Shown piece after piece: positions 11,023 through 60,664 of a stretch of 64,000 nucleotides of DNA (position 1 is its first letter; each line of letters begins with the position of its first letter). The DNA comes from Herbidospora yilanensis. Its GTDB lineage: Bacteria; Actinomycetota; Actinomycetes; Streptosporangiales; Streptosporangiaceae. A program made the position numbers and the translations under genes. Location of the stretch: assembly GCF_001570565.1 (NCBI RefSeq), contig NZ_BBXE01000026.1:62001-126000 (forward strand), written 5' to 3'. The notes below the pieces were generated by a model. It searched no databases, was not told the DNA's origin, and saw only the letters and a list, made by a program, of their open reading frames with translations.

Positions 11023-11023
11023 C

Positions 11024-11133: not shown

Positions 11134-11145
11134 GAAAACCTTTTC
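11134..11145. promoter_or_regulatory. Candidate LacI-family operator, copy 2
   Basis: GAAAACCTTTTC has perfect GAAAA/TTTTC arms around CC. It lies 25 bases upstream of the sugar-binding lipoprotein start and is the partner of the copy at 11024-11035. It would let one repressor control both divergent transcripts. Confidence 0.5.
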
Positions 11146-11170
11146 AGTTTTTCGGTCGAGAGGAACCCCC

Positions 11171-15825: not shown

Positions 15826-15827
15826 CG

Positions 15828-17141
15828 TCATACGCCGGCGGTCTCGCGGCGGCCGAGGTCGGCCGTGGGCACCTGGTACGTCTCCTTCGCGGTCAGCACG
15901 GAGATCGCGCTGACCGCGCAGAGCACGGCGGTGAAGATCCCCACGCCGACCCAGCCCCGCAGCCCGAGCCAGCCGTCGTCGGTCATGATCCCGGCCGCCG
16001 AGGCGACCGCGAAGCCGGCCACCGCGAACCCGATCTGGGTGCCGATGGCCATGCCCGACAGTCGGACGCGGGTGGTGAACATCTCGCCGTAGAGGGCGGG
16101 CCAGATGCCGTTGGACGCCGAGTAGACGACGCCGAAGCAGAGGCAGCCCGCCAGGAAGACCAGGACGTAGTCGCCCGAGTTGATCGCGGCCAGGTAGGCG
16201 AAGATCATGATCGGGCTGCCGATCGCGCCGACCAGGAAGACGGGCCGGCGGCCGATGCGGTCGGACAACCGGGCCCACAGCGGGATCGTGCCGAGCGCGA
16301 CCACGTTGGCCAGCACGCCGACCCACAACATGACCGCGCGGTCGAGCCCGACGGCGTCGCTCGTCGCGTAGTTGAGCGCCCACACGGTGAAGATGGTGCT
16401 GACCGTCGCGATCAGGGCGGCGCCGACGACGCGCAGCACGTCGGCCCAGTGGGTGCGGAACAGCTCGGCCAGCGGCATCTTCGGCACCGAGCCGTCGTCG
16501 ACCTGCGCCTGGAAGGCCGGGGTCTCGTCGAGGTGGCGGCGGATGAGGTAGCCGACGACCGCCACGACGACGCTCAACCAGAACGGCACCCGCCAGCCCC
16601 ACGACAGCAGTTGCTCCTCGGGTAACGCCGCGACCGGGATGAAGACGAGCGTGGCGAGGATCTGGCCGAACTGGGTGCCGTTCAGAGTGAAGCTGGTGAA
16701 GTAGCCGCGCCGGTTCTCGGGGGCGTGTTCCAGCGTCATCGAGTTCGCGCTGGCCTGCTCACCCGCCGCCGACAATCCCTGGAGGACACGCAGCACGACC
16801 AGCAGCACGGGCGCGAGGCCGCCGATCTGCTCCCTGGTCGGCAGGCAGCCGATCAGGAACGTCGCCACCCCCATCAGGACCAGCGTGAAGACCATGATGC
16901 GGCGGCGGCCGAACCGGTCGCCGATGTGGCCGAGGATGAGGGCGCCCACCGGGCGGGCGGCGTACGCCACGCCGAAGGACGCGAGCGACTGCAGGGTCGC
17001 GGTCGCGGGGTCGGAGTCGTCGAAGAAGACCTTGGAGAAGATCAGCGCGGCGGCGCTGCCGTAGATGAAGAAGTCGTAGTACTCCAGGGCGCTGCCGATC
17101 CAGGCGGCGAGGGCGGCGCGGCGGGGGGTGGCCTGGGTCAT
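15828..17141 (-). CDS. MFS transporter, metabolite:H+ symporter (MHS) family, probable quinate/shikimate uptake
   Basis: This 437-residue membrane protein has about 12 spans and MHS-family features: SALEYYDFFIYGSAAAL at the start and motif A GHIGDRFGRRR. ATG 17141 is chosen because the segment upstream is the shared promoter region. Its promoter carries one copy (17153-17170) of the operator also found before the dehydroshikimate dehydratase and quinate/shikimate dehydrogenase genes, so it probably imports quinate, shikimate or dehydroshikimate. The substrate is inferred from context; MHS proteins also carry alpha-ketoglutarate, citrate or benzoates. Confidence 0.88.
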   Translation of the reverse strand: MTQATPRRAALAAWIGSALEYYDFFIYGSAAALIFSKVFFDDSDPATATLQSLASFGVAYAARPVGALILGHIGDRFGRRRIMVFTLVLMGVATFLIGCLPTREQIGGLAPVLLVVLRVLQGLSAAGEQASANSMTLEHAPENRRGYFTSFTLNGTQFGQILATLVFIPVAALPEEQLLSWGWRVPFWLSVVVAVVGYLIRRHLDETPAFQAQVDDGSVPKMPLAELFRTHWADVLRVVGAALIATVSTIFTVWALNYATSDAVGLDRAVMLWVGVLANVVALGTIPLWARLSDRIGRRPVFLVGAIGSPIMIFAYLAAINSGDYVLVFLAGCLCFGVVYSASNGIWPALYGEMFTTRVRLSGMAIGTQIGFAVAGFAVASAAGIMTDDGWLGLRGWVGVGIFTAVLCAVSAISVLTAKETYQVPTADLGRRETAGV

Positions 17142-46273: not shown

Positions 46274-49200
46274 TCACGATGTGCTGGCAATGTAGTCGAG
46301 GGTCACCGAATAGCTCCCGCTCGGAACAAAAGGAATATCAACCTCATAATCATTCGAGAGTGAATCTCCGATTTGCGCCGACGGCCGGGACTGCTGGTGC
46401 ACCACGATCGGCGTCGTCGCCGACAGCGGCCGGAACCCCGACGTCCCGGGCGACCGCACCTTCAGCGCGGAGATCGGGATCGAGGCGCCGGTCACCGGCG
46501 AGGTCAGCGCGGTCGCCGACGACCGCACGGTCACCGTGTAGCCGGTCGGGCTGTTGGTGATGACGTTCATCGTCACGACGCCGTCGCCGCGTCGCGTGCT
46601 GTCGGGTGGGCCGGTCAGGGTGAAGTTCCTGGTCAGGTCGGCCAGGGCGATGCTCTGGGCGAGCACGCCGATGGTCGTCGAGCAGCGCGGGTCGGACGAA
46701 CCCACCGCACAGTTGGAGCCCCGGGTGGGCGACGTGATCGTGGTGGCCAGGGTGCCGTTCCCGGCGGCCGGGTCGATCCGCGCCGAATAGGTGACGGTCG
46801 CCGTCACGCCCTCCGCCAGGTCGCCCGTCCAGATCAGCTCGCCGTCGACAGGCGACACGAAGCCCGAGGACGCCCAGGCGTCGCCGCCGTAGATCGCCAC
46901 GCCGACCGGGTCGGTGTAGGTCGCCCCCGTGTACGACGTCTCCCCCGTGTTGGCGACCGTCACGGTGTAGTGCACGATGCCCCCGCCCACGATGCTCGCC
47001 GTGTCGGCCTGTTTGGTGATCGTGAGTTGTGGCGTCAGCACCCGCACGGTCGTCGAGCACGACGGGCCGCCCGGACAGGTCGCGCCGCTCGTCGGCGACA
47101 CGACCTGCTGGGTGAGCCGGTCGTCGCCCGGATCCGGATCCTTGACGCGCACCGAGAAGGTGACCGTGACGACCGCGCCGACGGCCAGGTCGCCGGTCCA
47201 CGACAACGTCGGCTCGGCGTAGTTCACCACGCCCGAGGTCGCCGTGGCGTCGCCGCCGTAGTCCGCGTCGCCGAGCACACCGACCAGGGACGTGCTCCAG
47301 GTCGCGTCCTGGTAGGGCGCCTCGCCGGTGTTCGCGGCGGTGATCGTGTAGGTCACGACGTCGCCCGGGGTCGCGGTCTGCCGGTCGGCGACCGTGGTCA
47401 GGGTCAGTTCCGGGATGAGGACGGTGACCGTGGTCGTACAGGCCTGGCAGTCGAGGCCCGGCGTCGTGGAGGCGAGTTCGCTGGTCAGCGTGCCGCCGTC
47501 GCCGCCCGGGTCGATCACGGTGATCGAGGCGGTCGCGGTGACCGACTCGCCGGGGGCCAGCGGGCCGTTCCAGGTGACCGAGCCGTCGAGGTTGAAGGTC
47601 AGGGCGCCGCCGCCGACCAGGGCGTCGTTGTTGTACTCGGCGTTCGCCAGCGCGCCGGCCAGCGACAACGTGAAGTCGCCGGGGGTGAGGTCCGTGCGGC
47701 CGGTGTTGGTCGCCGTCACCGTGTAGCGGACGACGTCACCCGGCATCGCGACCGTGCGGTCGGTGGCGGTGACGACGGTGAACACCGCCACCGGCACGTC
47801 GGTCCCGCAGCGCGGGTCGGTCCCGCAGTTGCCGCCGGTCGTCGGGGAGGTGATCCGGCTCGACAACATCCGGTCGCCCGGGTCGGGGTTCCGGACGGTG
47901 ACCGAATAGGTGATCGTCGCCGACTGGCCGGGAGCCAGCGCGCCCGTCCAGGCGAGTTCGCCGGGCGAGTAGCCGACGGTCCCCCTCGTGGCGCCGCCGT
48001 CGTCGTTGTAGACGGCGTCGTCGAGCACCCCCGCCAGCGCGTCGGTGAACGTGGCCGCCGGGTGGCTCGTCTGCCCGGAGTTGGTGGCCGTGATCGTGTA
48101 GGTCACCGTCCCGCCCGGGGCCGTCGACCCCGGGCTCGCCGACTTCACGATCGTCAGCGCCGGGGTGAGGATCTGGACGCTGCTCGCGCACGCCCCGCAC
48201 GACACTCCTTCGGCGTCCGACGTCACCGTGTTGGCCATGATCTTGTCGCCCGGGTCGGGCGACCGCACGGTCATCGTGTAGGTCACCGTCGCCGACACTC
48301 CCACCGCCAGGTCGCCGGTCCAGGTCAGCGCCGAGTCGGCGAAGGCCGCCGAACCGGTCGTGGCGGCGGCGTCCGCGCCGTACACCGCGTCGTCGAGCGT
48401 GCCCGCCAGCGGGTCGGTGACGCTGATCCCCGTGTAGGGCGTCTCGCCGGTGTTCGCGATCGTGATCGTGTACGCCACCACGTCGCCCGGCTCGGCCGTC
48501 ACGCGGTCGGCCGTCTTGGCGATGGTGAGCTCCGGCACCAGCACGGGCACGTCGAGCGCGCACGACGGGCCGGAGCCGCCCGCCGGGCAGTTCGAGCCCG
48601 GCGCGGCCGACACCACCCGGGTCGCGATCCGCCGGTTCCCGGTCGGCGGCGCGTTGGCCGTGAACGGCGACGCCACCGTGACGCTGCCGCCGACGGGGAC
48701 GTCGCCCGTCCAGACGAGGTCGAGACCCTCGACCGACAACGTCCCCGAGGTGAGCGTCGTGTCGCCGGTCGGCGTGGCCGCGTCGACCAGGTCCCCGGCG
48801 GGGATCGACACGCGGATCCCGCGATAGGGCGTCTGCCCGGTGTTGGTGAACACGGCGGTGAGCTGCAACGCCTGCCCCGGCTTGACGCTGCCGGCGCTGG
48901 ACGACACGGCGATGTCCAGCTCCGACACGGTGACCCCGGCCGAGCAGCGCGGGTCGGCGCCGCCGGCCGGGCAGTTGCCCCCGGGCGAGGCCGAGGTGAG
49001 CGCGCCGGTGAGCAGGTCGTCGCCGGAGCCGCGCACCGGATCGACCGTCACCGAGTAGGTGACCGTCACCGCGCCCCCGGCCGGGACGTTCCCGGTCCAG
49101 GTCACGTTCGGCGACGTGAAGGCGGCCGTGCCCGACGTCGCGGTCAGGTCGCCGTTGTACGTGGCGTCGTCCAGCACCCCCGTCAGCGGGTCGGTGAAGG

Positions 49201-52200
49201 TCGCCCCCACATAGGTCGTGGCGGCGGAGTTGGCCACGGTGATCGTGTACGTCACCACCCCGCCCCGCACCACCGACGACGGGTCGGCCGTCTTGGTGAA
49301 GGTGAGGTCGGTGACGTCGGTGACCGGCACGGTGACCGCGCACGGCGTGCCGGCCGACCCCGCCGGGCAGTCGGCGCCCTTGGCCGCCGAGGTGGTCACC
49401 GCGGTCAGCCGCCTGTCGCCCAGGTCGGGGTTGTCGACGACCGCCGTGAAGGTGATCGTCGTACCGGCGCCGACGGCGAGGCCGCCGGTCCAGGTGAGCA
49501 CCGGCGCCGTGTAGGCCACCGACCCCGACGTGGCGACGGCGTCGCCGCCGTACGCGGCGTCGTCGAGCAGCCCCGCCAGGTCGGTGAGCGCCGTGGTGCC
49601 CAGGTAGGGCGTCTGGCCGGTGTTGGTGATCGTCGTGGTGAAGGTGACGGTGTCGCCGGGAACGGCGGTCTGCCGGTCGGCCGAGGTCGCCACGGTCAGC
49701 GCCGGAGTCAGCACGACCACCCTCGACGTGCAGGCCGGGACGCACGTGCTGCCCGGCGCGGCCGAGGTCACCGCGTTGATGAGCTGCTTGTCGCCCGGAT
49801 CGGGGTCGCGGACGGTCACGCTGTAGGTGACGATCGCGGAGGCCCCGACGGCCAGGTCGCCCGTCCAGGTCAGTTGCGGCGTGGCGAAGACGGCCGTGCC
49901 CGTCGTGGCCGACGCGTCGTTGCCGTAGACGGCGTCGTCGAGCAGACTGCTCAGGTCGTCGGTCACGCTGATCCCGGTGTAGGGCGTCTGGCCGGTGTTG
50001 GTGATCGTCGTCGTGTAGTGGACGACGCCGCCGGGCTCCTGGGTGGTGGTGCCGGGCGTGGTCGTGATGGTCAGGGCGGGGACCAGCACGTCGATCCGCG
50101 CGGTGCAGGCCGGGTCGGTCCCGCCGGCCGGGCAGGAGCCGCCCGGCGCGTCGGAGACGAGCGTGCCCCGGATGACCTTGTTTCCGGTGCCGGGGTTCCG
50201 CACGGTCAGCGTGCCGGTGACGGTCACCGTGCCGCCGACGGGGATGTCGCCCGTCCAGTTGATGCCGGTTGGACCCAGGACGAGGTTCCCCGAGCTGGCG
50301 ACCTGGTCGCCGTTCGGGACGGCGTCGTCGATCACGTCGGCGCTGGAGGCCGCCACGGTGAGGCCCGTGTAGGGCATCTGGCCCGTGTTGGCGAACGTCG
50401 CGCTCAGGTGGATGACCGAGCCGGGTGTGGTGCTCGTCTCGGTGAAGGCCTGGCTGAGGGCGAGCCTGGACAGGCGCACCGTCGAGGAGCAGCCGGTCGG
50501 GCAGGTCGACCCGGGGTCGGTCGAGACGACCGTCCCGGTGATCAGGCCGTCGCCGGGGTCGGGGTCGCGCACCGTCACCGAATAGGTGATCGTCGTGGTC
50601 GCGCCGACGGCGAGGTTCCCCGTCCAGGTCAGGTTCGGCGCGGTGTACGTCACCGTGCCGGAGCTCGCGGCGGCGTCGCCGTTGTAGACGGCGTCGTCGA
50701 GGAGCTGGGCGAGCTGGTCGGTCAGGCTCGCCCCGGTGTAGGGCGTCTGGCCGGTGTTCTCGGCCGTGATCGTGTAGCGGATCACGTCGCCCTGGACGGC
50801 GCCGGTCCGGTCGGCCTGCCGCGTGATCGACAGGCCGGGCACGAGCACGTTCACCACGGAGGTGCAGTTCGGGTTCGACGACCCCGAAGGGCAGGTGCTG
50901 CCCAGCGTCGACGACACCACTGTGTTGATCATGAGGCGGTCGCCGGGATCGGGGTTCTTCACGGTCACCGTGTACGTCACCGTCGCCGTGGCCCCCACCG
51001 CGAGGTCGCCCGTCCACGACAGCACCGGGGCGTTGTAGGAGAGCGTGCCGGAGGTGGCCGCGGCGTCGCCGTTGTAGACGGCGTCGTTGAGCACGCCGGC
51101 CAGCGACTCGGTGAAGGTCGCGCCCTGGTAGGGAGTCTGGCCGGTGTTGGCGGCGGTGATCGTGTAGGTGACCGTGTCGCCGGGTGTGACGGTCGGGGAG
51201 CTCGCGGTCTTCGTCAGGGTGAGCCGCGGTTGCAGGATCGGGACGGACGTCGTACACGACACGCAGTTCAGGCCGGCCGTCGTCGAGGTGACGTTGCCGG
51301 TCACCGCGCCCGTGGCGGGATTGCCGACGGTGACCGACGCGGTGGCGGTCACCGACTGGCCGGGCGCGAGCGGGCCGGTCCAGGTGATCGTCCCGTTCGG
51401 GTTCAGCGTCAGGTTGCCCGAGGTGGCGGTCGCGTCGTTGCCGTATGTCGCGTCTCCGGCCGGCGCGAGCGTGAAGTTCGCCGCCGGATAGGTCGTCTGC
51501 CCGGTGTTGGTGGCGGTCACCGTGTAGCGCACCACCCCGGTCGGCGTCGTGCTCGACACGTCGGTGGCGGTGGTGACGGTGAGCCGCGGCACCAGCGTCG
51601 TGACGGTGCTCGTGCACGGGCAGTTGTTCCCCGGACTGGCCGAGGTCACCGTGTTGGTCAGCGAGCGGTCGCCGGGGTCGGGGTCGCGGACCGTCACCGA
51701 GTAGGTGATGGTGGCCGACGCGCCCGCGGGCAGGTTGCCCGACCACGACAACGTCGGCGCACCGTAGTTCACGGTGCCCGAGGTCGCCGCCGCGTCATTG
51801 TTGTACGTCGCGTCGTCGAGCACTCCTGCGAGCGCGTCGGAGAACGTGGCCGGGGAGTACGCCGTCTTCCCGGTGTTGGTCACCGTGATGGTGTAGTTCA
51901 CGGTCGCCCCCGGCGTGGGGCCGGCCGCGTCGGCCGTCTTGCCGATGACGAGCGCCTGCAGCGTGACCGTCGACCGGCAGCGGCTGTCGCCGCTCGACGC
52001 GGCGCAGTTGGTGCCCGAGGCCGGCGAGGAGACCGTGTCGGTCAGGATGCCGTTCCCGCCCGTCCGCACGGTCACCGAGTAGGTGATCGTCGCGGTCGCC
52101 CCGGCGGCCAGATTGCCGGTCCAGGTGACGTTCTGCCCGGCGAACGAGACGTTCCCGAGCGAGGCGGCGAGGTCGCCGTCGTAGGTGGCGTCGTCGAGCA

Positions 52201-55150
52201 CGTCGGCCAGCGGGTCGCTCAGGGTGACCCCGGTGAAGGCCGACGGACCGGTGTTCGCCACGGTGATCGTGTAGGAGACGGTGGATCCCGGGACCGCGGC
52301 CGACTGGTCGGCCGTCTTGGTGATGACCAGCGGCCCGGCCCCGACCGTGACCGTGCCCGACCTGGTGTCGCTCTGCCCGTTCGTGTCGGTGACCTTCACC
52401 GTGAAGGCGTAGGCGCCCTGCGTGGTCGGGGTGCCCGAGATCAGCCCGGTCGAGGTGTTCAGCGTCACCCCGGGCGGCAGCGTCCCCGAGGCGAGCGAGT
52501 AGGTGTAGGGGCCGGTGCCGCCCGACACCGAAAGCGGCAGGTTGTAGGCCACGGCCACCTGCGCGGCCGGTGGCGTCGGAACGGTCAGCACGGGAGGCGG
52601 CACGATCGTCACCGTCGCCGCCCGGGTGTCGCTCTGCCCGCCGGCGTCGACGATCCTGACGGTGAAGTCGTAGGTGCCCGCCGACGTCGGCGTGCCCGAC
52701 AGCAGGCCGGTGGACGGGTTGAGCGTCACCCCCGGAGGCGGCGACCCGGCGCTGATCGACCACGTGGTCGGCGCGGTGCCGCCCGTCATCGTCAGCGGCA
52801 CGTTGTAGGCGACGTTCACCTGACCACCCGGCGGCGGCCCGAAGGTTAGCCGCGGGTTGGCGTTCGGCGTCACGGTCGCGGACACCGTGGACGGCGACCC
52901 CGTGCCGGCCGCGTTCACCGCCGCGACCGTGAAGGTGTACGACGCCCCCGCCGTCAGCCCGGTCACCGTCTGCGTCGTCGCCGTGGACGGATAGGAGATC
53001 GGCGTCTGCTCCACCCCGTTGAGATAGGGCGTGACGATGTAACCGGTGACCGCGCTGCCGCCGTTCGCGGCCGGCGGCGACCAGGTCAGCGTGGCCGACA
53101 GGTCTCCGGCGGTCGCCGAGGTGATCGTCGGCCGCCCCGGCACGGTGTAGGGCACCACCGCGTTCGACTGCGCGCTCGCCGTTCCGGTCCCGATGGTGTT
53201 CACGGCCGCCACGGTGAAGGTGTAGGAGGCCCCGGCCGTCAGGCCGGTGAGCGTCTGCGTCGTCGCGGTGGAGGAGTAGGAGATCGGCGTCTGCGCGACG
53301 CCGTTCAGGTAGGGCGTGACGACGTAGCCCGTGATCGGGCTGCCGTTCGGCGACGGCGCGGTCCACGTCACGGTCGCGCTGGTCGCGCCCGCCGTCGCGG
53401 TGGGCGCGGCGGGGGTGCCGGGCGCGGAGGTGTAGGTGTAGGCGGCGGACCCCGCCACGCCCTGGGTCACCACCGTCACCGTCACGGCCGCCGCCGACGG
53501 GCGCGACGGCATCGACGAGATCGTCAGCGTGCCGTTGGCGTTGGCGGTGAAGCAGTTCGTGGTGATCACGCTGGAGCACGGCAGCAGCACGACCGGGGTG
53601 CCGGCCTGCTGCTCGGCCGTGGTGCCGATCTCGACGGCGGTCGCGCCGGTCAGGTTCGACCCGCTGACGGTCACGCTTCCGCCGCCCGCGATGGTGCCGC
53701 TGGTGGTCGACAACGTGAGGCCGGACGGCGCGGCCGGGATCGTGCCCGCCGTGGTGGTGGTCGCGATGCCCGGGTTTCCGTCGTTGGAGGAGACCGTCAC
53801 CGTCGAACCGGTCTGGACCGTCGAGGGCGTCACCGAGCTCCCGGTGACGATGCCGACGACGGTGATCGTGGGCAGGGTCGTGCCGCCGGCGAAGGGGGTG
53901 CCGGAGTTCGTACAGGTGATCTTCTGCCCTGACGGCGCCCCGCAGACCCAGCCGGCGCCGAACGCGCCCACGGGCACCACACCCGCCGGGAGCGTCTCGG
54001 TCACCGAGATCGGCAGCGTCTCGTTGGCGCCCGTCGCCGACACCACCGGCCTGACCGTGTACGTCACCGGGTCGCCCGGCTTCGGCGCCGAGCCGTTGTA
54101 GCTCGTCTGCGTCACGCTCAGGTCGGGCACCGGGTTGAGGCTGTTGACCACGACGTTGTCGATCTCGTGGAAGTCGGTGACGCCGCCCGTCGAGGCGACC
54201 CAGCCGAACGCGAGCTGCCGGGGGATGCCCGCCGCCGTCGTCCACGTGGACGACGGGTAGAGGCTCGACGACACCGTGGGCAGTGTGCCCGTCAGCGTGC
54301 GGGAGGCGCCGCTGACCGGGGTGAACTGGACCACGTAGGTGCCCGCCGCGACCGACAACCCGGCGGCGGTGGTCAGCGTGCTCGACGTCGGGTTGATCGC
54401 GACCGCGACCGGGACCACCGACACCGAACGGGTGGTGCTCCGCAGCCGGAGGGCAGCCGAGTTCGTCGAGGTGGCCGTGCTGTTGATCGCGCAGTAGCCG
54501 ACGGTGCCCGCGCCGGGCCCGCGCACCACGACCTGACCGGGCACGGTCGTGGTGGTCGAGATGTAGGGCGGGTTGCTGCACCCGCTGCCCTGGTAGGAGG
54601 AGTTGCTGAAGTTGCCGTACGCGTCGAACCCGAACCCCAGATAGGCGTTGGCCAGCCCGTCCCCGGCCGAGAACGGCGAATACCCCAGCGAACCGCCGGG
54701 CCGCCCGATGGTGGCGGGCGGCACCGGGTTGGCCGGATCTACGGCCGCGACGACGAACGCCAGGCCGTCGGCGCCGCCGCCGCCGTACTGGTACATGTTG
54801 AACGTCACGTCGAGGCCCTGCGACGTCGGCACCGACGTGGCGCCGAAGACCCCGCCCTGCTGACTGGTGACGGCGCTGGTCAGCCGCAACACGCCCGAAC
54901 CGTTGGCGTCGGTCGAGGTGGTGCAGCTCTTGAGCCCGGTCCCGGTGGTGTTCCCGGCGGCCGACAGGCAGACGGCGTTGGTGCCGGCCGACCCGGCGGG
55001 CAGCGCCGGGATCGACACCGGATAGGCGGAGGCGATCGTGTTGTTCTTGAACGGCTGCACGAACAGCGTCGACCCGGCGGCGTGCGACACCGACGCGGGA
55101 ACGTGGACGACCGCCGCGACGAGGCCGACGGCGAGCGCCCGCCTAAACAC
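46274..55150 (-). CDS. Giant secreted multi-domain adhesin-like protein with 15 DUF11 repeats
   Basis: This ~2,958-residue exported protein is the main component of a putative surface complex. In order it shows: a signal peptide (VFRRALAVGLVAAVVHVPAS); a lectin-like N-terminal domain (~30-320, with GLDVTFNMYQYGGGGADGLAF and YLGFGFDAYGNFSN); a DUF11-type region; an IPT/TIG-like segment; two FN3 domains (PGTPAAPTATAGATSATVTW; PGRPTITSATAGDLSATLTW); two Ig-like putative-Ig (He_PIG) modules; then 15 DUF11 repeats of ~125 residues; then a WxL-like C-terminal domain. I chose GTG 55150, which follows GGGAGTGGGAGCC and overlaps the DUF916 stop; GTG 55174 is the alternative. The N-terminal lectin and C-terminal wall-binding domains suggest it bridges the cell wall and an external glycan. 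Confidence 0.85.
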   Translation of the reverse strand: MFRRALAVGLVAAVVHVPASVSHAAGSTLFVQPFKNNTIASAYPVSIPALPAGSAGTNAVCLSAAGNTTGTGLKSCTTSTDANGSGVLRLTSAVTSQQGGVFGATSVPTSQGLDVTFNMYQYGGGGADGLAFVVAAVDPANPVPPATIGRPGGSLGYSPFSAGDGLANAYLGFGFDAYGNFSNSSYQGSGCSNPPYISTTTTVPGQVVVRGPGAGTVGYCAINSTATSTNSAALRLRSTTRSVSVVPVAVAINPTSSTLTTAAGLSVAAGTYVVQFTPVSGASRTLTGTLPTVSSSLYPSSTWTTAAGIPRQLAFGWVASTGGVTDFHEIDNVVVNSLNPVPDLSVTQTSYNGSAPKPGDPVTYTVRPVVSATGANETLPISVTETLPAGVVPVGAFGAGWVCGAPSGQKITCTNSGTPFAGGTTLPTITVVGIVTGSSVTPSTVQTGSTVTVSSNDGNPGIATTTTAGTIPAAPSGLTLSTTSGTIAGGGSVTVSGSNLTGATAVEIGTTAEQQAGTPVVLLPCSSVITTNCFTANANGTLTISSMPSRPSAAAVTVTVVTQGVAGSAAYTYTSAPGTPAAPTATAGATSATVTWTAPSPNGSPITGYVVTPYLNGVAQTPISYSSTATTQTLTGLTAGASYTFTVAAVNTIGTGTASAQSNAVVPYTVPGRPTITSATAGDLSATLTWSPPAANGGSAVTGYIVTPYLNGVEQTPISYPSTATTQTVTGLTAGASYTFTVAAVNAAGTGSPSTVSATVTPNANPRLTFGPPPGGQVNVAYNVPLTMTGGTAPTTWSISAGSPPPGVTLNPSTGLLSGTPTSAGTYDFTVRIVDAGGQSDTRAATVTIVPPPVLTVPTPPAAQVAVAYNLPLSVSGGTGPYTYSLASGTLPPGVTLNTSTGLISGTPTTQGAYAFTVKVTDTNGQSDTRSGTVTVGAGPLVITKTADQSAAVPGSTVSYTITVANTGPSAFTGVTLSDPLADVLDDATYDGDLAASLGNVSFAGQNVTWTGNLAAGATATITYSVTVRTGGNGILTDTVSSPASGTNCAASSGDSRCRSTVTLQALVIGKTADAAGPTPGATVNYTITVTNTGKTAYSPATFSDALAGVLDDATYNNDAAATSGTVNYGAPTLSWSGNLPAGASATITYSVTVRDPDPGDRSLTNTVTSASPGNNCPCTSTVTTLVPRLTVTTATDVSSTTPTGVVRYTVTATNTGQTTYPAANFTLAPAGDATYGNDATATSGNLTLNPNGTITWTGPLAPGQSVTATASVTVGNPATGAVTGNVTSTTAGLNCVSCTTSVPILQPRLTLTKTASSPTVTPGDTVTYTITAANTGQTPYQGATFTESLAGVLNDAVYNGDAAATSGTLSYNAPVLSWTGDLAVGATATVTYTVTVKNPDPGDRLMINTVVSSTLGSTCPSGSSNPNCTSVVNVLVPGLSITRQADRTGAVQGDVIRYTITAENTGQTPYTGASLTDQLAQLLDDAVYNGDAAASSGTVTYTAPNLTWTGNLAVGATTTITYSVTVRDPDPGDGLITGTVVSTDPGSTCPTGCSSTVRLSRLALSQAFTETSTTPGSVIHLSATFANTGQMPYTGLTVAASSADVIDDAVPNGDQVASSGNLVLGPTGINWTGDIPVGGTVTVTGTLTVRNPGTGNKVIRGTLVSDAPGGSCPAGGTDPACTARIDVLVPALTITTTPGTTTQEPGGVVHYTTTITNTGQTPYTGISVTDDLSSLLDDAVYGNDASATTGTAVFATPQLTWTGDLAVGASAIVTYSVTVRDPDPGDKQLINAVTSAAPGSTCVPACTSRVVVLTPALTVATSADRQTAVPGDTVTFTTTITNTGQTPYLGTTALTDLAGLLDDAAYGGDAVATSGSVAYTAPVLTWTGGLAVGAGTTITFTAVVDNPDLGDRRLTAVTTSAAKGADCPAGSAGTPCAVTVPVTDVTDLTFTKTADPSSVVRGGVVTYTITVANSAATTYVGATFTDPLTGVLDDATYNGDLTATSGTAAFTSPNVTWTGNVPAGGAVTVTYSVTVDPVRGSGDDLLTGALTSASPGGNCPAGGADPRCSAGVTVSELDIAVSSSAGSVKPGQALQLTAVFTNTGQTPYRGIRVSIPAGDLVDAATPTGDTTLTSGTLSVEGLDLVWTGDVPVGGSVTVASPFTANAPPTGNRRIATRVVSAAPGSNCPAGGSGPSCALDVPVLVPELTIAKTADRVTAEPGDVVAYTITIANTGETPYTGISVTDPLAGTLDDAVYGADAAATTGSAAFADSALTWTGDLAVGVSATVTYTMTVRSPDPGDKIMANTVTSDAEGVSCGACASSVQILTPALTIVKSASPGSTAPGGTVTYTITATNSGQTSHPAATFTDALAGVLDDAVYNDDGGATRGTVGYSPGELAWTGALAPGQSATITYSVTVRNPDPGDRMLSSRITSPTTGGNCGTDPRCGTDVPVAVFTVVTATDRTVAMPGDVVRYTVTATNTGRTDLTPGDFTLSLAGALANAEYNNDALVGGGALTFNLDGSVTWNGPLAPGESVTATASITVIDPGGDGGTLTSELASTTPGLDCQACTTTVTVLIPELTLTTVADRQTATPGDVVTYTITAANTGEAPYQDATWSTSLVGVLGDADYGGDATATSGVVNYAEPTLSWTGDLAVGAVVTVTFSVRVKDPDPGDDRLTQQVVSPTSGATCPGGPSCSTTVRVLTPQLTITKQADTASIVGGGIVHYTVTVANTGETSYTGATYTDPVGVAIYGGDAWASSGFVSPVDGELIWTGDLAEGVTATVTYSARIDPAAGNGTLATTITSPTRGSNCAVGSSDPRCSTTIGVLAQSIALADLTRNFTLTGPPDSTRRGDGVVTMNVITNSPTGYTVTVRSSATALTSPVTGASIPISALKVRSPGTSGFRPLSATTPIVVHQQSRPSAQIGDSLSNDYEVDIPFVPSGSYSVTLDYIASTS
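46676..52337 (-). repeat. Array of 15 DUF11 repeats within the giant protein
   Basis: I count 15 copies of a ~125-residue module, each with a core like TPGDTVTYTITxxNTGQTPY, a middle VLDDAxYNGDAAATSG and an end GDLAVGATxTVTYSVTVRxPDPGD. The copies are diverged, not identical, so the array is not an assembly artefact. The boundaries given are approximate. Confidence 0.8.
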
Positions 55151-56057
55151 GGCTCCCACTCCCGGCCAGCTCACGCGCGGCCGCCTCGACCCGGCGCCGG
55201 TACCGGTGCCGGGCGACGACCCAGATCAGCGCGCCGCCCATCACGAGGGCGACGAGGACGACGACCAGGTGCAGCGGGAAGACGACCACCTGCACCGTCC
55301 GGGTGTTGCCGCCGGGGACCGCCACGGTCACGTCGCAGAAGCAGACGAGCGGCGTGTCCCAGGTCGCCGCCACCTCACGGGTCGCGCCCCGCACGACGGT
55401 GAAGTCGGGGAACAGCAGGTCCGACCCGCCGGCCCGGATCCTGAGGCGCTCCGCCCCCCGGAAGTCGCGGTGCACCGTGCCGGTGCCGCGGATCCGCGCG
55501 GTGATCGGCACCGGCCCGCCGAGCACGAACCCGGGCGCCCGCAGTTCGGCGATCTCCGCTGATCTGTCGATCGCCCCTGGCACGGTGACGAACACCGGCG
55601 CGGCGATCCCCCGGTTGATCCGGATGTTCGCCGTGGTCTTCGTCGCCGGGACCTTGAAGATGACCGCGAACTGGTGGTCGCCGGGTTCGGGGGTCCGGGG
55701 CACGACCACCCGCAGCGTCACCGGCCGGGTCTCCCCCGGCGGCACCGTCAGTCGCGCCGGACTCACCTCGGCCCAGGCCGCCGCCGCGTAGGGCGCTCCG
55801 GCCTGGAATCGCATCGCCCCCGACTCACCGGCGACGAAGTCGGATTTCTCGACGGTGACCTGGAACGCCTCCCGGCCCTTGTTGGTCACGTCGAACCGGT
55901 GCTCGGAGGTCCCGGCCGGGACGATCAGCCGGGTCGGCGTGACCTGCATCGAGAAGGCGGGCTCTGGTTCGGCCGCCCGAACCGGTGTGCCTTGGGTCAA
56001 GAAAAGACACAACACGACGAGGAATCCCGCCGTGCCACCCCGAACCGAATTGACCAT
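55143..56057 (-). CDS. DUF916 (WxL-partner, peptidoglycan-binding) membrane protein, CscA-like
   Basis: This 304-residue exported protein is followed by a C-terminal span. In Firmicutes, DUF916 proteins (CscA) accompany WxL proteins and bind peptidoglycan. The N terminus has a signal peptide (GFLVVLCLFLTQGTPVRA). The DUF916 region shows FSMQVTPTRLIVPAGTSEHRFDVTNKG, PARLTVPPGETRPVTLRVVVP and DHQFAVIFKV. A second Ig-like half follows, then the anchor LHLVVVLVALVMGGALIWVVA with a basic tail. ATG 56057 lies eight bases from GGGGGG. It is the first gene of the operon; the giant DUF11 gene starts at its stop codon. Confidence 0.88.
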   Translation of the reverse strand: MVNSVRGGTAGFLVVLCLFLTQGTPVRAAEPEPAFSMQVTPTRLIVPAGTSEHRFDVTNKGREAFQVTVEKSDFVAGESGAMRFQAGAPYAAAAWAEVSPARLTVPPGETRPVTLRVVVPRTPEPGDHQFAVIFKVPATKTTANIRINRGIAAPVFVTVPGAIDRSAEIAELRAPGFVLGGPVPITARIRGTGTVHRDFRGAERLRIRAGGSDLLFPDFTVVRGATREVAATWDTPLVCFCDVTVAVPGGNTRTVQVVVFPLHLVVVLVALVMGGALIWVVARHRYRRRVEAAARELAGSGSRV

Positions 56058-56253
56058 CCGCAATGCCCCCCATAGCGATCAATTCGAGAAGGTAGTCAAT
56101 CGACCGCCAAGAGGACTGCTCAAGATCGTCCGTGGATTCCTAGTCTCCATCCATGGTTTTCAGTGGGGTCATATTCCGTAAAGCTTCCTCCGATGCGCCT
56201 TACTTCCCCCAATTGGGTATATGGGCCGGAGGGCAGTGATATACGGGGGAGAA

Positions 56254-56787
56254 ATGAGAAAAGGCATCGCCGCGCTGGCGGGACTGTTGTTCGCGGCCGT
56301 CACACCGGCAGCCGCGCTGGCGTCGGAGGATCCTGGCTCGATGGGGGTCTCGATCCGGGTGCTGCCCCCAGACGGTCCGGTCGACCCGGTGGATCCGGTC
56401 GACCCTGTGAACCCGGCGCATCCGGCGCATCCGGTGGACCCGTCCGCCGAGGAGCCGGACGGGCACCGCGGAAGGCCGATGACCCATCATGTCGACGACG
56501 GCCATAGGGGTGGTGTCGACGGCATTCAGGGCAATGTCGACGGCCAAAACTTCGAGGGCGGCTCAGACAACTCAGACATTAACCGCGATTCGACAATTCA
56601 CCGGGATTCCGGCGTTCAAGGCAGTTCGGAGGCGAACCGCGAATCCGGGGCCAGGCCCGAGGAATTGCCGTTCACCGGAATGAACGGCGACGCCCTCCTG
56701 GTCCTCGCCCTCGCGGGCGCGGTCGCGTCGCTGGAGGGCGCCGCTCTGATCGTGCTGACCCGTCGCCGGTTCAGACGCTCACCTTGA
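56254..56787 (+). CDS. Small LPFTG cell-wall-anchored protein (CscD-like)
   Basis: This 177-residue exported protein has a signal peptide (GIAALAGLLFAAVTPAAALA). A PVDPVDPVDPVNPAHPAHPV repeat segment, an acidic/Asn-rich low-complexity middle and a sorting signal follow. The sorting signal is LPFTG, then a hydrophobic span (LLVLALAGAVASLEGAALIVL), then TRRRFRR. A sortase should attach it to peptidoglycan; none is encoded in the window. ATG 56254 follows GGGGGAG. It is divergent from the DUF916 operon, with a 196-base promoter region containing the palindrome CCCAATTGGG (56208-56217). Its last codons lie in an 18-base repeat also found at the end of asnB. Confidence 0.85.
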   Translation: MRKGIAALAGLLFAAVTPAAALASEDPGSMGVSIRVLPPDGPVDPVDPVDPVNPAHPAHPVDPSAEEPDGHRGRPMTHHVDDGHRGGVDGIQGNVDGQNFEGGSDNSDINRDSTIHRDSGVQGSSEANRESGARPEELPFTGMNGDALLVLALAGAVASLEGAALIVLTRRRFRRSP

Positions 56788-56788
56788 C
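56771..56788. repeat. 18-bp direct repeat, left copy, flanking the GHKL-nuclease gene
   Basis: TCAGACGCTCACCTTGAC lies at the 3' end of the LPFTG gene and is identical to 58826-58843. The next three bases match at two positions. An 18-base match between the ends of two unrelated genes is very unlikely by chance. Confidence 0.85.
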
Positions 56789-56801
56789 CTCCGGCCGGAG
56801 G
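56788..56801. terminator. Palindrome CCTCCGGCCGGAGG between convergent genes
   Basis: This 14-base perfect palindrome follows the LPFTG stop codon immediately and precedes the convergent GHKL gene's stop. It could form a terminator-type hairpin. Confidence 0.5.
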
Positions 56802-56809
56802 CGGGCGCT

Positions 56810-58753
56810 TCAGGGACGCACCTCAGGTTCCCGCAGCGCCGGAGGCAGAAGTCGGGCATGCACCCGGCGGAGGTATTCGATCCCCTCGTCTCTGCTCGAT
56901 CGGTGCTGGAGACTGTCGGCGACGAACTTCAAGCGATGCTTCGCGTCAGTGATCGCCTCGGCCCAGGTCTTGGCGATCACGCGGTAGCGTTTCGTCTGTT
57001 TCACCACCCCGACGGGGCGGTCTGGCGAAGTCGCTTCCTCACGCACATAGTCGTCCAGTTCGTTGCCGATGATCCAGAACTCCCAATGGACATTGGGTTG
57101 GTTGAAGCGTTCGTCCTGGGCAACGGCGAACGCGTAGTCTTCGATCTGCTGAAGTTCGGCACGCCCGATCTTCACCTTGGGCCGCTTCAATTCGACCACC
57201 AGATGCTCCAGCCGGTTGTCCCGATTCTTCAGCGGACGCGACAGAACGAGATCCGGAATCGCCTCGGTCCCGTCGAGGCGAGTGATCGGCTCGTCTCCGG
57301 CAAGCTCTACGTCCTCACCAAGGGCGGCAAGATGCTTCCGGAGTACGACAAGCAGACGATCGTCGTCGCCGGTCAATGCGTACTCCTCACCGAACAACCA
57401 GGTCTCTTCGGCGAGAATTCGGTGGAGTTGTCGTCGTTCAAGGGTCTGCCGCCTGGGCTCCGCGTCGAAGAGAAGCGCGTCCAAGCCATCCAGGAAGTTC
57501 AGTCGGTCGGCGATTGTGCGGGCGGACACGATCACCGATGTCAGTGGAGCGCGCTGCAGCAGATGGGCCAGGTCGCTCACCTGTTCGTCTGACAGCTCAA
57601 GGACATCCGACAGGACGGATTTCAGATTCGTGGGCTTCGTCTCCAGAGCTTCTTTCAGAAGACGAAGAGCCAGTCGCCGTGCCTGCCTGTCCGATGACTC
57701 AAGAGGTTTGGCAGCGCTCAACGCCACGACGTCGAACAGTTCCCGTTCGCGTTCCTCGATGGAATCGGCCGGTGGCCCGGAGAAGGGATAGCTCTGCTCG
57801 GCCTTCCAGCGTGTGACCATCTGCTGGCGTTTCTCGTCGACACGGGCCCTGAAGTGAGCTTTCAGCGTATCCCGCGCTGCTTGAACGATGGAGGCGGTGG
57901 CTTCGTGCTCCATGTCTGCCAGCAGGATGTCATGGCCGATATGGCGAAACCCGTCCCAGCGCACGTAGGCCGTGAAGTCAAAGCCGGGTGCCTGAACATT
58001 GGGCTGCATCTCGTGCAACGCCTGTCCGTTGGCATCACAGAGATAGAGCAGCCGCCGCACCTTCTTCCGCCATTCGATCACCACGAGGGTCGCCGCTCCG
58101 GCGCCAGGCAGAGAAAGCGGGTATTCCTTGCGAATCTCCTGCAGATCCCGGGGGGCCACCAACAGCCCTTGCCATGTGATCCGGAGCGGATAGGACTCCA
58201 GATAGAGAGCGAATGTCGTCGTCAGGTAGGTGAGAACACCAGGGCGCTCAAGTGCAAGGCTCGCCGCAGCCCCCAGTCTGTCGATCGATACGCGGGTGCC
58301 CGTCTCGGCCACCACCGCGATCGGCGATGAGACCTCGAATTCATCCAATCTCTCGCGTACACCCGTTATTGCGATCTCAAAATTGCCGGCACCCTCGTGG
58401 GTAGCCACGGACTTCCAGACGACCGTGTCGCCGATCCCGAACGCCGCATAACGGCCCTTGCCCTGGCTTCCGTGCAGGGCGCGCTTCCGGTTTCTGGAGA
58501 CGACAGCCTTCGGTTTCCATGATTCGCCGAGCGCGCCGAAGTCTCGCTCCGCTTCGACCTGGGTCATGCCATGCCCGTCGTCTTCGACAAGCACGGAACA
58601 GATGATGTCAGCCGAGTCGCGGTCAACCGTGATGTCGACGACTGTCGCATCTGCGTCCAAGGCGTTCCAGATGAGCTCGGCCAGCCCATGAACAGCGGAC
58701 CTGATCTGACCTGCCAGATGATCTCGCCCGAGTCGAACGGTTACGCGTGACAT
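56810..58753 (-). CDS. GHKL/Hsp90-type ATPase with C-terminal PD-(D/E)xK-like nuclease motif, probable defence protein
   Basis: This 647-residue protein is of unassigned function. The N-terminal ~200 residues are a GHKL ATPase: N-box LAELIWNALDADA, EDDGHGMT (DxGxG) and HGSQGKGRYAAFGIGD (G2). A long helical middle follows. The C-terminal ~170 residues contain AIPDLVLSRP, then a Glu-Leu-Lys in LVVELKRPKVKIG, then ELQQIEDYAFAV. These together resemble a PD-(D/E)xK nuclease core as found in phage-defence proteins of the Shedu/DUF4263 type. ATG 58753 starts MSRVTVRLGR. Codon use is less GC-rich than its neighbours, and 18-bp direct repeats flank the gene, suggesting acquisition. Anti-phage action is inference. 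Confidence 0.75.
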   Translation of the reverse strand: MSRVTVRLGRDHLAGQIRSAVHGLAELIWNALDADATVVDITVDRDSADIICSVLVEDDGHGMTQVEAERDFGALGESWKPKAVVSRNRKRALHGSQGKGRYAAFGIGDTVVWKSVATHEGAGNFEIAITGVRERLDEFEVSSPIAVVAETGTRVSIDRLGAAASLALERPGVLTYLTTTFALYLESYPLRITWQGLLVAPRDLQEIRKEYPLSLPGAGAATLVVIEWRKKVRRLLYLCDANGQALHEMQPNVQAPGFDFTAYVRWDGFRHIGHDILLADMEHEATASIVQAARDTLKAHFRARVDEKRQQMVTRWKAEQSYPFSGPPADSIEERERELFDVVALSAAKPLESSDRQARRLALRLLKEALETKPTNLKSVLSDVLELSDEQVSDLAHLLQRAPLTSVIVSARTIADRLNFLDGLDALLFDAEPRRQTLERRQLHRILAEETWLFGEEYALTGDDDRLLVVLRKHLAALGEDVELAGDEPITRLDGTEAIPDLVLSRPLKNRDNRLEHLVVELKRPKVKIGRAELQQIEDYAFAVAQDERFNQPNVHWEFWIIGNELDDYVREEATSPDRPVGVVKQTKRYRVIAKTWAEAITDAKHRLKFVADSLQHRSSRDEGIEYLRRVHARLLPPALREPEVRP

Positions 58754-58825
58754 GCCAAGGATTCTCGCAGGCACAACCGTTTGTCGTACGGGTTCACGAC
58801 AGGCCCGGCGCTTATGCGGCAAATG

Positions 58826-58843
58826 TCAGACGCTCACCTTGAC
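58826..58843. repeat. 18-bp direct repeat, right copy, 3' end of asnB
   Basis: TCAGACGCTCACCTTGAC on the plus strand contains the last codons and stop of asnB. The identical left copy is at 56771-56788. The ~2.05-kb interval holds only the GHKL-nuclease gene, so the 3' end of asnB may have served as an integration site. Confidence 0.85.
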
Positions 58844-60664
58844 GTCGTAGTCCTTCAGCCAGGCGTCGAGTTGGAGCAGGCGCTCCAGCGGCGGCCTCGG
58901 CAGCGGCTCGCCGTCGGTTCGGCTCACCATCCTGCGGGCGTCGACGAGGTCCATGACCTCCTGGCTCGGCAGGTAGTCGCCGCGCAGCAGGTCGCGTGCG
59001 GCGTCGCGGAGCGCGACCCCGTACGACGGGTCCTGGGTCGAGGGGTAGGGCGACTTGACCCGGCGCAGGATCGAGTCGGGCAGGATGTCCGCGCAGGCCG
59101 CCCGCAGCAGGCTCTTCTCCCGGCCGTCGAACGTCTTCATCGCCCAGGGCGCGTTGAAGACGTAGGTGACGAGGCGGTGGTCGCAGAAGGGCACGCGGAC
59201 CTCCAGCCCGACGGCCATGCTCATGCGGTCCTTGCGGTCGAGCAGCATCTGCACGAACCGGGTGAGGTTGAAGTAGCTGATCTCCCGCATCCGCGCCTGC
59301 AGCCCGGTCTCGCCGGGCACGCGTGGCACCTCGGCCATCGCGTCGTGGTAGCTGTCGGCCTGGTAGCCGGGGATGTCGAGCAGCCGCAGCAGGTCCTGGT
59401 CGACCAGATCCAGGTTCACCTGGCCCACGACGTCGCCGACGGCCAGCCACGGGAAGGTGTCGGCGTTGACCGCCCTGGGGTCGTGGAACCACTGGTAGCC
59501 GCCGAAGACCTCGTCGGCCGACTCGCCCGACAGGGCCACCGTCGAGTGGCTGCGGATCGCGCGGAACAGCAGGTAGAGCGAGGTGTCCATGTCGCCCATG
59601 CCGACCGGCAGGTCGCGGGCGCGCAACACCGCCGCCCTGACGGCGGGGTCGATGAGGTCGGCCGAGTCGAGCACGATGTCGGTGTGGTCCGACCCGACGT
59701 GCCGCACCAGGTCGTGGGCGTAGGGCCCGTCGGGAGTCGACCGGGCGGCGTCGGGCTTGAAGTTCTCGGTGTAGCCGGTGAAGTCGACCGAGAACGACCG
59801 GACCCTGCCGAGGCCCTGCGCCTTCAGGTCGTGCGCGGCCAGCGCGGTGACGGCGCTGGAGTCGAGCCCGCCCGACAGCAGCGTGCACAGCGGCACGTCG
59901 CTGATGAGCTGGCGGGCGATGATGTCGTCGAGCAGCCCCCGGACGTTCAGCACGGTGGCCGCGATGTCGTCGGTGTGCTCGTACGAGGTGAGCCGCCAGT
60001 AGCGGCGCTTGGTGATGCCCTCCCGGCGGATCTTGACGATCTGGCCGGGGCGGACCTCGTACATGCCCTTGAAGATCGCCATCTCCGGCGTCTTCACGAA
60101 CGCGAGCATCTCGCGCAGCCCGTCGGCGTCGACGACCCGCTCGGCCATCGGGTTGGCCAGGATCGCCTTCGGCTCCGAGCCGAACAGCACCCCGTCGTGC
60201 GTCGGGTAGTAGTAGAGCGGCTTGATCCCCATCCGGTCGCGGACCAGGATGAGCTGCTCGGCGCGGGTGTCCCAGACGGCGAACGCGAACATGCCGTTCA
60301 GGTGGTCGGCGAGGTCCTCGCCCCACTCCAGGTAGGCGTGCAGGAGGACTTCGGTGTCGCTGTACGTCCGGAACGTGTGCCCCCGCGAGACCAATTCGTC
60401 GCGGAGTTCCTGGAAGTTGTAGACCTCACCGCTGTAGGTGAGCACCGCCAGCTCGCGTCCGTCGTCCTCGGCGACCATCGGCTGCCGTCCTCCGGCGAGG
60501 TCGATGATGGCGAGACGCCGGTGCCCGATCGCGGCGTGCGGAGAGAGCCAGAGCCCCTCGTCGTCGGGCCCCCGACAGCTCATCGTGTCGGTCATGGCCT
60601 GCGCGATCTCCCGTGCTCCCGTCAGATCACGCTCGTAGTCCACCCAGCCGGTGATTCCACACAT
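58826..60664 (-). CDS. asnB: Asparagine synthetase (glutamine-hydrolysing)
   Basis: It makes asparagine from aspartate, glutamine and ATP. The mature N terminus starts MCGITGW, so Cys2 is the glutaminase nucleophile, with RLAIIDLAGGRQPM and YSGEVYNFQELR following. The synthetase half has the PP-loop LLSGGLDSS (~260) and SGESADEVFGGY. Length is 612 residues. ATG 60664 follows GGGAG and is fixed by the requirement for Cys2. No biosynthetic cluster is adjacent, so a housekeeping or cell-envelope amidation role is likely. The stop codon lies inside a repeat shared with the other side of the GHKL gene. Confidence 0.96.
   Translation of the reverse strand: MCGITGWVDYERDLTGAREIAQAMTDTMSCRGPDDEGLWLSPHAAIGHRRLAIIDLAGGRQPMVAEDDGRELAVLTYSGEVYNFQELRDELVSRGHTFRTYSDTEVLLHAYLEWGEDLADHLNGMFAFAVWDTRAEQLILVRDRMGIKPLYYYPTHDGVLFGSEPKAILANPMAERVVDADGLREMLAFVKTPEMAIFKGMYEVRPGQIVKIRREGITKRRYWRLTSYEHTDDIAATVLNVRGLLDDIIARQLISDVPLCTLLSGGLDSSAVTALAAHDLKAQGLGRVRSFSVDFTGYTENFKPDAARSTPDGPYAHDLVRHVGSDHTDIVLDSADLIDPAVRAAVLRARDLPVGMGDMDTSLYLLFRAIRSHSTVALSGESADEVFGGYQWFHDPRAVNADTFPWLAVGDVVGQVNLDLVDQDLLRLLDIPGYQADSYHDAMAEVPRVPGETGLQARMREISYFNLTRFVQMLLDRKDRMSMAVGLEVRVPFCDHRLVTYVFNAPWAMKTFDGREKSLLRAACADILPDSILRRVKSPYPSTQDPSYGVALRDAARDLLRGDYLPSQEVMDLVDARRMVSRTDGEPLPRPPLERLLQLDAWLKDYDVKVSV

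Follow-up and report, generated by a model that had tools for sequence, protein, structure and literature searches.

A lone GHKL ATPase–nuclease gene inserted at the 3′ end of asnB in Herbidospora yilanensis and flanked by an 18 bp gene-end duplication

Introduction

The paraMORC3 proteins described by Iyer et al. (2008; PMC2292703) combine a GHKL ATPase with a nuclease, and that account places their stand-alone forms mostly in proteobacteria and Bacteroidetes. The gene reported here has in common with them a predicted N-terminal GHKL ATPase and C-terminal restriction-endonuclease-fold domain with E-D-ExK, the existence of stand-alone members and a patchy spread; it differs in belonging to an actinomycete and in having an insertion scar that is still legible. 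VcSduA from Vibrio cholerae is reported to be anti-phage and to require both its ATPase and its nuclease residues (PMC12137116). It too joins a GHKL ATPase and a PD-(D/E)xK nuclease in one protein; its nuclease is DUF4263 (Shedu), a domain that profile searches did not establish in the present protein. In P4-like satellites a hotspot for anti-phage genes lies between psu and int (PMC9122126); the words HATPase, GHKL, MORC and DUF4263 are all absent from the main text of that paper. In the three E. coli records examined a homologue of the present gene fills the psu–int slot, whereas the insert described below has no psu, no int and no tRNA/tmRNA target. GHKL–nuclease defence candidates, with anti-phage activity reported for VcSduA, are extended here to actinomycetes and to P4-like satellites.

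The window analysed is a stretch of 64,000 bp from Herbidospora yilanensis (contig NZ_BBXE01000026.1, positions 62,001–126,000), and all coordinates refer to it. To our knowledge, the movement of lone defence genes without mobility genes between chromosomes is poorly understood. A base-exact scar, six empty sites, a measured background of insertions without such scars and a second homologue with a comparable gene-end duplication make such movement testable at this locus.

The insert and its flanking genes

The features of the locus are as follows.
56221–56787, plus strand: gene for a predicted surface protein, the intact left host gene (start codon uncertain)
56771–56788, plus strand: left copy of the 18 bp direct repeat, formed by the 3′ end and stop codon of the sortase-anchored-protein-like gene
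56789–56809, no strand: 21 bp from the nuclease-gene stop to the left repeat, including a palindrome
56789–58825, no strand: inserted segment, 2,037 bp, GC 0.614, missing in all six congeners
56810–58753, minus strand: GHKL ATPase gene with a C-terminal PD-(D/E)xK nuclease, 647 amino acids, likely start ATG at 58753
58754–58825, minus strand: 72 bp from the asnB end to the gene start, upstream of the gene and presumably holding its promoter
58826–58843, plus strand: right copy of the repeat, formed by the 3′ end and stop codon of asnB (minus strand)
58826–60664, minus strand: asnB (asparagine synthase), the intact right host gene

The sequence TCAGACGCTCACCTTGAC was found exactly at 56771–56788 and 58826–58843 by a search of the window, and the asnB stop codon (TCA) starts at 58826; the original prediction, which had placed the right copy at the asnB terminus, was correct on both points. 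It had overlooked that the left copy is also a gene end (the TGA stop of the left host gene lies at 56785–56787, inside the copy) and that the repeat corresponds to the stretch in which two convergent genes ancestrally overlapped, with one further base. At up to three mismatches just these two copies occur in 64 kb, against 0.05 expected, and the match extends to 21 bp with a single mismatch at position 19. The three bases after the left copy are CTC, which also occurs in the empty sites of L002, L003 and L005 (G005, G001 and G004); those after the right copy are GTC, shared with L006 and L007 (G002 and G006).

As had also been predicted, the interval contains only the nuclease gene, a single ORF extendable to 56810–58822 on the minus strand, and its GC content (0.614) is lower than that of the window (0.696). 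Third-position GC is 0.72 in the nuclease gene, 0.96 in asnB and 0.76 in the left host gene; since the latter is likewise low, a foreign origin is only weakly indicated by composition taken by itself. The inserted single-gene unit is probably foreign. The palindrome CTCCGGCCGGAG occupies 56789–56800. The left host protein has an LPFTG sortase-type motif and a hydrophobic C-terminal tail, and a family search with it gave no significant match. None of the identified neighbours of the nuclease gene is a defence gene, and the original term 'candidate defence island' is generous for a single gene.

The sole gene-sized frame in the insert with homologues is no recombinase, so that the insert carries neither recombinase nor integrase. 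No pair linking both insert ends was present among the best 25 of 28 inverted pairs. A transposon with a target-site duplication was rejected: no terminal inverted repeats were seen and the single gene is not a transposase.

Insertion and empty sites

In all six congeners a single copy of the repeat is present and the flanks are joined directly (asnB 91–96% identical), which is the arrangement that the original prediction had expected of relatives lacking the gene. The surface-protein-like gene and asnB are convergent there, with a tail-to-tail overlap of 17 bp (6/6), and the duplicated 18 bp are this overlap plus one base, so that both flanking genes remained intact. The repeat marks a genuine insertion. 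We infer the polarity from parsimony across the six empty congeners, and the insertion is best explained as confined to the H. yilanensis lineage among those sampled. The insert-encoded protein had no match at E ≤ 1e-10 in any of the six, none has a GHKL–nuclease gene adjoining asnB, and the search for other genes at the asnB 3′ site that the original prediction had proposed found none in them. Genome-wide, the 18-mer occurs twice in H. yilanensis, once exactly in four of the six congeners and once with one mismatch in the fifth; it was not found at up to one mismatch in the sixth.

Insertions in this lineage do not ordinarily leave a duplication like that of 18 bp. Twelve clean indels between the contig and the nearest congener had boundary repeats of 5, 5, 5, 6, 6, 7, 7, 7, 8, 8, 12 and 18 bp, the last being the asnB-site insert and the 12 bp repeat belonging to an indel with a 95 bp flank overlap. 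Six pairwise comparisons yielded 58 clean indels, which are not independent of one another; among them the sole other repeat of at least 12 bp was one of 45 bp, which bounds a 26 kb island at a tRNA-Thr gene in a congener. Random 2 kb intervals of the window provided a weaker control, as the window includes a giant repeat-rich gene: an 18 bp flank repeat was reached by 2/60 and the flank alignment score was not extreme (p 0.08).

The encoded protein

HATPase_c_3 was present in 23/23 aligned sequences, in which WN29–30, D58xGxG and GxxG (95–98) are invariant and E26 is nearly so; the ATPase-module model matches MutL, MORC and TRAP1. The putative nuclease residues E439, D501 and E521-L-K523 are invariant in the same 23 sequences. 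The C-terminal domain is predicted to adopt the restriction-endonuclease fold with E-D-ExK, the fold being assigned from weak PDB matches, of which EndoMS and SgrAI stand first and none reaches E ≤ 0.001 (best E 2.2e-3). The protein resembles the stand-alone paraMORC3 proteins as described in print, and its most likely role is that of an anti-phage nuclease of this stand-alone type, a function suggested by its domains and relatives.

Membership of Shedu was not established: DUF4263 was absent from the window protein at E ≤ 1 and from the families listed for the 23 relatives at E ≤ 0.01, the PADLOC SduA model gave a weak match in one of these 23 (E = 0.004) and no Shedu structure was named among the 50 PDB matches listed for the C-terminal model. 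The BbrUII/HgiDII restriction enzymes (NCBIfam NF050001) share the GHKL N-terminal domain (E 1.1e-15, two stretches), but the assignment was rejected at 57.3 bits against a curated cut-off of 550, the best stretch covering residues 47–183 only; unlike these enzymes, the window gene has no methyltransferase gene with it in the insert.

Genomic contexts of homologues

The nearest homologue found is from Actinomadura soli (67%). Two of the five homologue loci scanned for neighbours lie beside defence genes, one having BrxC/D and helicase neighbours (BREX) and another pPIWI-RE and adjoining N6 methylases; the scanned neighbours of the nearest homologue (L058) include DUF3644, PP2C and GntR, among others, with no clear defence system. 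A plasmid homologue adjoins Drt2 and restriction–modification genes. In E. coli P4-like satellites, which adjoin ssrA, the homologue is the sole annotated gene between psu and the integrase in all three of the records examined out of 11 E. coli matches. Homologues also occur in prophages and plasmids, and 39 loci lie within viral contigs; near-identical plasmid copies of the window gene were not found. In one genus the gene is present in 7/54 genomes, namely the query genome and six at 78–84% DNA identity, two of which hold it only in part; in these six the gene lies on one contig and the counterpart of its adjoining flank in the query genome on another. The gene family looks mobile, in keeping with the original view of the cargo.

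Repeats flanking homologues

A tighter repeat test used 150 bp flanks and 1,044 control ORFs. Repeats of at least 18 bp within 150 bp of both ends were found for 2/27 homologues and 1/1,044 controls (Fisher p 0.0018; 0.048 without the window); the single control with a long repeat, L239 with 28 bp, proved to be a CRISPR array and was kept in the statistic, so that the p-values are conservative. A gene-end duplication like that in the window was found in one of the 26 other homologues tested (G130/L139), where 35 of 38 columns match, 19 bp of them exactly, and the copies begin at the stop codon of an adjoining aspS-like gene, the left copy having a 1 nt deletion. Tight repeats are absent from the remaining 25 of the 27, where the longest is 10 bp, and likewise from 17 further loci (longest 12 bp), some of which are partial or distant and one of which is already among the 27.

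The genus of G130 has three genomes, of which the other two lack synteny with its left flank, and no empty site was shown there; the match lists for the G169 and G235 regions contained no clean empty site, and the G314 region matches relatives on one side only. With 800 bp flanks the next longest repeats (L143, 16 bp; L144, 15 bp; L150, 14 bp) are not clearly exceptional in their distances or against the null, and L151 has a gapped GC-rich flank match (p 0.02). A whole-locus scan, the complexity filter of which discarded the known L139 repeat, gave repeats on either side of L152 (up to 42 bp), L153 (up to 76 bp), L148 (18 bp), L143 and L156 (16 bp each), mostly kilobases away.

Origin of the insertion

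Direct repeats at a gene 3′ end and empty sites are both present, as for a site-specifically integrated element. The original attribution of the repeats to insertion is supported by the six empty sites; the repeat may stem from site-specific integration or from another process. Our favoured explanation, with a probability of about 0.5, is a Campbell-type integration of gene-bearing DNA that brought its own host-gene end, the cargo providing paraMORC3-type defence. A foreign single-gene unit would have entered the 17 bp overlap of the two convergent genes as a small molecule (∼2.06 kb if circular) that brought a second asnB 3′ end with it, and a crossover within the common 18–21 bp, catalysed by a recombinase from elsewhere, would have left an 18 bp duplication (perhaps originally 21 bp) with both genes whole. 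Once the gene is expressed, ATP-dependent dimerization of the GHKL module may gate the C-terminal PD-(D/E)xK nuclease, which would cut invading DNA. We infer the incoming gene-end copy, the circle and the recombinase; the copy is suggested by repeats that start at a stop codon here as well as in G130, by the CTC after the left copy and by the 1 nt deletion in G130. The inner ends of the window, L139 (G130) and L058 inserts have no clear similarity, and those of the window and G130 thus point to no shared recognition site. Against this integration, the insert includes no recombinase, and its non-coding DNA amounts to just 72 + 21 bp.

Neither a donor nor an attP was found in 297 family genomes and viral contigs. 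The 18-mer occurs at up to one mismatch in nine of the 297 (H. yilanensis, five congeners and three others); in the three others it lies within predicted genes, and two matches in viral contigs look like chance coding matches. Another element using the asnB attachment site was rejected, the remaining matches being intragenic or apparently due to chance. The open-licence literature yielded no relevant report of single-gene insertions with repeats and without an integrase, which is weak evidence of absence.

Nearly as likely as integration with its own gene-end copy, at somewhat under even odds, is a single event in which a break captured linear foreign DNA; here two nicks ∼18–21 bp apart would have been filled in and joined end to end, and selection would have retained just those events that left asnB and its neighbour whole. 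The genome encodes Ku, neither a recombinase nor a common end sequence is present and most tested homologues lack repeats. To spare both genes, any insertion into the overlap must duplicate at least 17 bp, and selection alone could therefore explain the repeat, which at overlap plus one base is near this minimum. Random breaks, however, would not favour a repeat starting exactly at a stop codon, as is seen here and again in G130, and the other clean indels nearby have no such duplication.

It is rather unlikely that homologous recombination brought in asnB and the gene as one segment from a congener outside the sample in which the insertion was already present, whether in this form or with one-sided homology in asnB and an illegitimate joint on the far side. 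Such an import would fit a right copy followed by GTC as in L006/L007 and a left copy followed by CTC as in L002/L003/L005, and identity to the nearest congener is 93% over the final 150 bp of asnB, at the low end of the 93–99% range along the gene. This dip nevertheless falls within the scatter along the gene, the nuclease gene lies beside asnB in none of the six congeners and the origin would merely be shifted elsewhere.

It is improbable that the insert is what is left of a larger element with an integrase, for instance a satellite or integrative plasmid, of which the defence gene and both attachment sites survive. P4-like satellites beside ssrA do carry homologues, and a congener has the 26 kb island with its 45 bp repeat at a tRNA-Thr gene, but deletions on two sides would have had to end 21 bp and 72 bp short of the gene while sparing both sites, and the same deletions would be required for G130. 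That the gene and both repeats are ancestral is hardly credible: recombination between the repeats would yield exactly the observed empty site, but the loss is required in all six congeners, the third-position GC of the gene differs from that of asnB (although that of the left host gene is also low) and the nearest homologue found is the one in Actinomadura soli.

Beyond the favoured integration, a broader proposal, which we regard as doubtful, is that some genes of this family move naked, as a promoter and one ORF without a recombinase, into the 3′ ends of housekeeping genes. These ends would be asnB here and aspS in G130, with a short carried copy of the end regenerating the host gene.

Insertion site and empty sites

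The direct repeat predicted at the 3' end of asnB was confirmed at its predicted coordinates: the 18-mer is exact and is found twice in the 64 kb window (0.05 matches expected with up to three mismatches allowed, two found), and it lengthens to 21 bp if one mismatch is accepted. The interval between the copies had been claimed to hold only a lower-GC GHKL-nuclease gene, and it indeed consists of 2,037 bp with one gene and a GC fraction of 0.614 (0.696 for the whole window).

56771–56788, left repeat copy, end of the plus-strand surface-protein-like gene (left host gene)
56789–58825, insert with one minus-strand gene (GHKL ATPase with C-terminal PD-(D/E)xK nuclease, 647 aa)
58826–58843, right repeat copy, end of asnB (minus strand)

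The likely start of the inserted gene (ATG 58753) is separated from the asnB stop by 72 bp and its stop from the left repeat copy by 21 bp. Empty sites were searched for in 60 relatives using asnB as the query, and six congeners were found (91–96% identity). In all six a single repeat copy joins the left flank directly to asnB, as had been expected of strains lacking the gene, and no match to the GHKL-nuclease protein was obtained in any of them at E ≤ 1e-10. The window's genome contains two copies of the 18-mer; four congeners have one exact copy, a fifth has one copy differing at a single base, and the genome of the sixth has none within one mismatch. Because the six congeners have joined flanks, one repeat copy at the site and no GHKL match, the segment is best read from these alignments as a derived insertion rather than as two separately constrained sequences, which supports the mobile insertion of the original prediction.

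At all six empty sites the plus-strand left host gene (C-terminus of the product: LPFTG motif, hydrophobic stretch, RRRFRR(S/A)P) overlaps asnB tail to tail by the final 17 bp. The 18-bp duplication corresponds to this ancestral overlap plus one base, and after insertion each copy ends one host gene. An insertion within the overlap can spare both genes only by duplicating 17 bp or more, and the repeat by itself is therefore no proof of a site-specific recombinase. The 18-mer is followed by CTC in the left copy and in congener loci L002, L003 and L005, by GTC in the right copy and in L006 and L007, and by TTC in L004; this pattern would fit either a duplication of 21 bp in which one base later changed or an incoming right copy.

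Background of insertions in the lineage

The window's contig was compared with that of the nearest congener, and the 12 clean indels of at least 300 bp had boundary repeats of 5, 5, 5, 6, 6, 7, 7, 7, 8, 8, 12 and 18 bp, the last being the GHKL-nuclease insertion and the 12-bp repeat belonging to an indel with flanks overlapping by 95 bp. Six pairwise comparisons of the window's genome and three congeners (13 to 236 kb aligned) yielded 58 clean, non-independent indels. Those with repeats of at least 12 bp were the GHKL-nuclease insertion, recorded three times, the indel with the 12-bp repeat and a 26-kb island with one of 45 bp. Since several scar-free indels between the window's contig and the nearest congener are also apparent single genes (simple ORF caller), the 18-bp scar stands out as unusual in the lineage. 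In a weaker control, random intervals from the same window, which contains a giant repeat-rich gene, the repeat is less remarkable (2/60 attain 18 bp; p 0.08).

The 26-kb island (G002 contig C2, ∼441243–467688; L249 and L250) lies at a tRNA-Thr gene (L249 1168–1242) and is missing from congener G005. Compared with the nearest congener, window 4825–15849 is very variable and contains several clean 1.9–5.2-kb insertions that lack boundary repeats. A minus-strand ORF at 46274–55174 (2,966 aa, many similar repeat domains) adjoins a predicted membrane-anchored protein. Congener G004 carries a CRISPR array (L239, ∼5370–6480), the 28-bp repeat of which is GTCGGCCCCGCGCCTGCGGGGATGGTCC.

A second scar and the mode of entry

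In genome G130 a homologue with an internal stop (L139 7857–10014) is flanked by two copies of the final 38 bp of an aspS-like gene. The copies agree at 35 of 38 columns (19 bp exact); they differ by one mismatch adjoining the stop codon, another adjoining the exact block and the loss of 1 nt from the distal copy. Both here and in the window the repeat copies start at the host-gene stop codon and the inserted gene follows in the same direction as the host gene. A search of the two other genomes of its genus yielded no demonstrable empty site for the G130 insert. Repeats of at least 18 bp within 150 bp of both ends were found for 2/27 homologues and, among 1,044 control ORFs, for one, which proved to be the CRISPR array of L239 (Fisher p 0.0018; 0.048 without the window, which had prompted the test). 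In a further 17 loci (several partial or distant, one duplicating a homologue among the 27) the longest repeat was 12 bp.

The more interesting question is the precise entry of a naked gene. In two independent cases the repeats start at the stop codon, and the distal copies look like the host's original gene end; this suggests that the DNA that came in brought a copy of the end of the host gene with it. Recombination of a circular molecule at that copy would produce the observed structure in one step. The inner ends of the window and G130 inserts had no clear similarity in common, and no donor was found among the 297 family genomes or viral contigs searched. It is almost as probable that linear DNA was captured at a staggered break and that selection favoured intact genes; Ku is encoded in the window's genome. 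Import of the segment from an unsampled congener would account for the GTC/CTC difference but leaves the origin of the insertion unexplained.

The protein

GHKL was the sole significant Pfam domain of the window protein; HSDR_N_2 was found in 12 of 23 relatives. In the alignment of these 23, E26 is nearly invariant and WN29–30 and D58xGxG (ATPase) and, near the C-terminus, E439, D501 and E521-L-K523 are invariant. The full-length predicted structure (pLDDT 82.6, pTM 0.55) matched TRAP1, MutL and MORC, and that of the C-terminal part (pLDDT 87) gave weak matches only, with EndoMS and SgrAI at the top. The protein fits the description of paraMORC3 in PMC2292703 (GHKL plus a restriction endonuclease-fold domain with E-D-ExK, stand-alone in some members). 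Among proteins of similar kind, VcSduA is the one that has been tested: PMC12137116 reports anti-phage protection dependent on its ATPase and nuclease residues alike; Shedu membership of the window-protein family is not established. The gene adds a new member, from an actinomycete, to a kind already known, the stand-alone GHKL-nuclease defence candidates.

Distribution and neighbours of homologues

The protein was found in 27/297 family genomes (own genome included; some are fragments) and, at E ≤ 1e-60, in 10/394 class and 3/396 phylum genomes (own included); the closest homologue found was from Actinomadura soli (67%). In genus g4 it was present in 7/54 genomes, the query genome and six others (78–84% DNA identity, two partial). 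The flank adjoining it in the query genome matched in 54/54, in one as pieces, and in the six other carriers, mostly draft assemblies, homologue and flank lie on different contigs.

Selected neighbours were scanned at five loci, picked as the nearest relative (L058) or for large neighbours. They included pPIWI-RE and N6 methylases at L154, BREX BrxC/D and a helicase at L157, a DEAD helicase at L155 and, at L059, ArdC/TraG from a conjugative element, with no clear defence system among those scanned at L058. Homologues were also found in 46 plasmid records, two phage records and 39 viral-contig loci (a few with a partial match only). Drt2 and a restriction-modification pair adjoin the homologue on a Psychrobacter plasmid; the Salmonella and Streptomyces plasmid records examined had no plain defence cluster around it.

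Of 5,426 complete E. coli genomes, 11 contain a gene closely matching the homologue from Salmonella. In the three E. coli chromosomal records examined (L278, L279 and L280, 7001–8986) a distant homologue alone is annotated in the interval from psu, the polarity-suppression gene, to the integrase. The E. coli element, beside ssrA, is read as a P4-like satellite, the psu–integrase slot of which is a hotspot according to PMC9122126. In Pasteurella phage Pmp14 (L277 4001–5959) the homologue lies amid hypothetical genes between the tail genes and the tape-measure gene, placed as added cargo would be.
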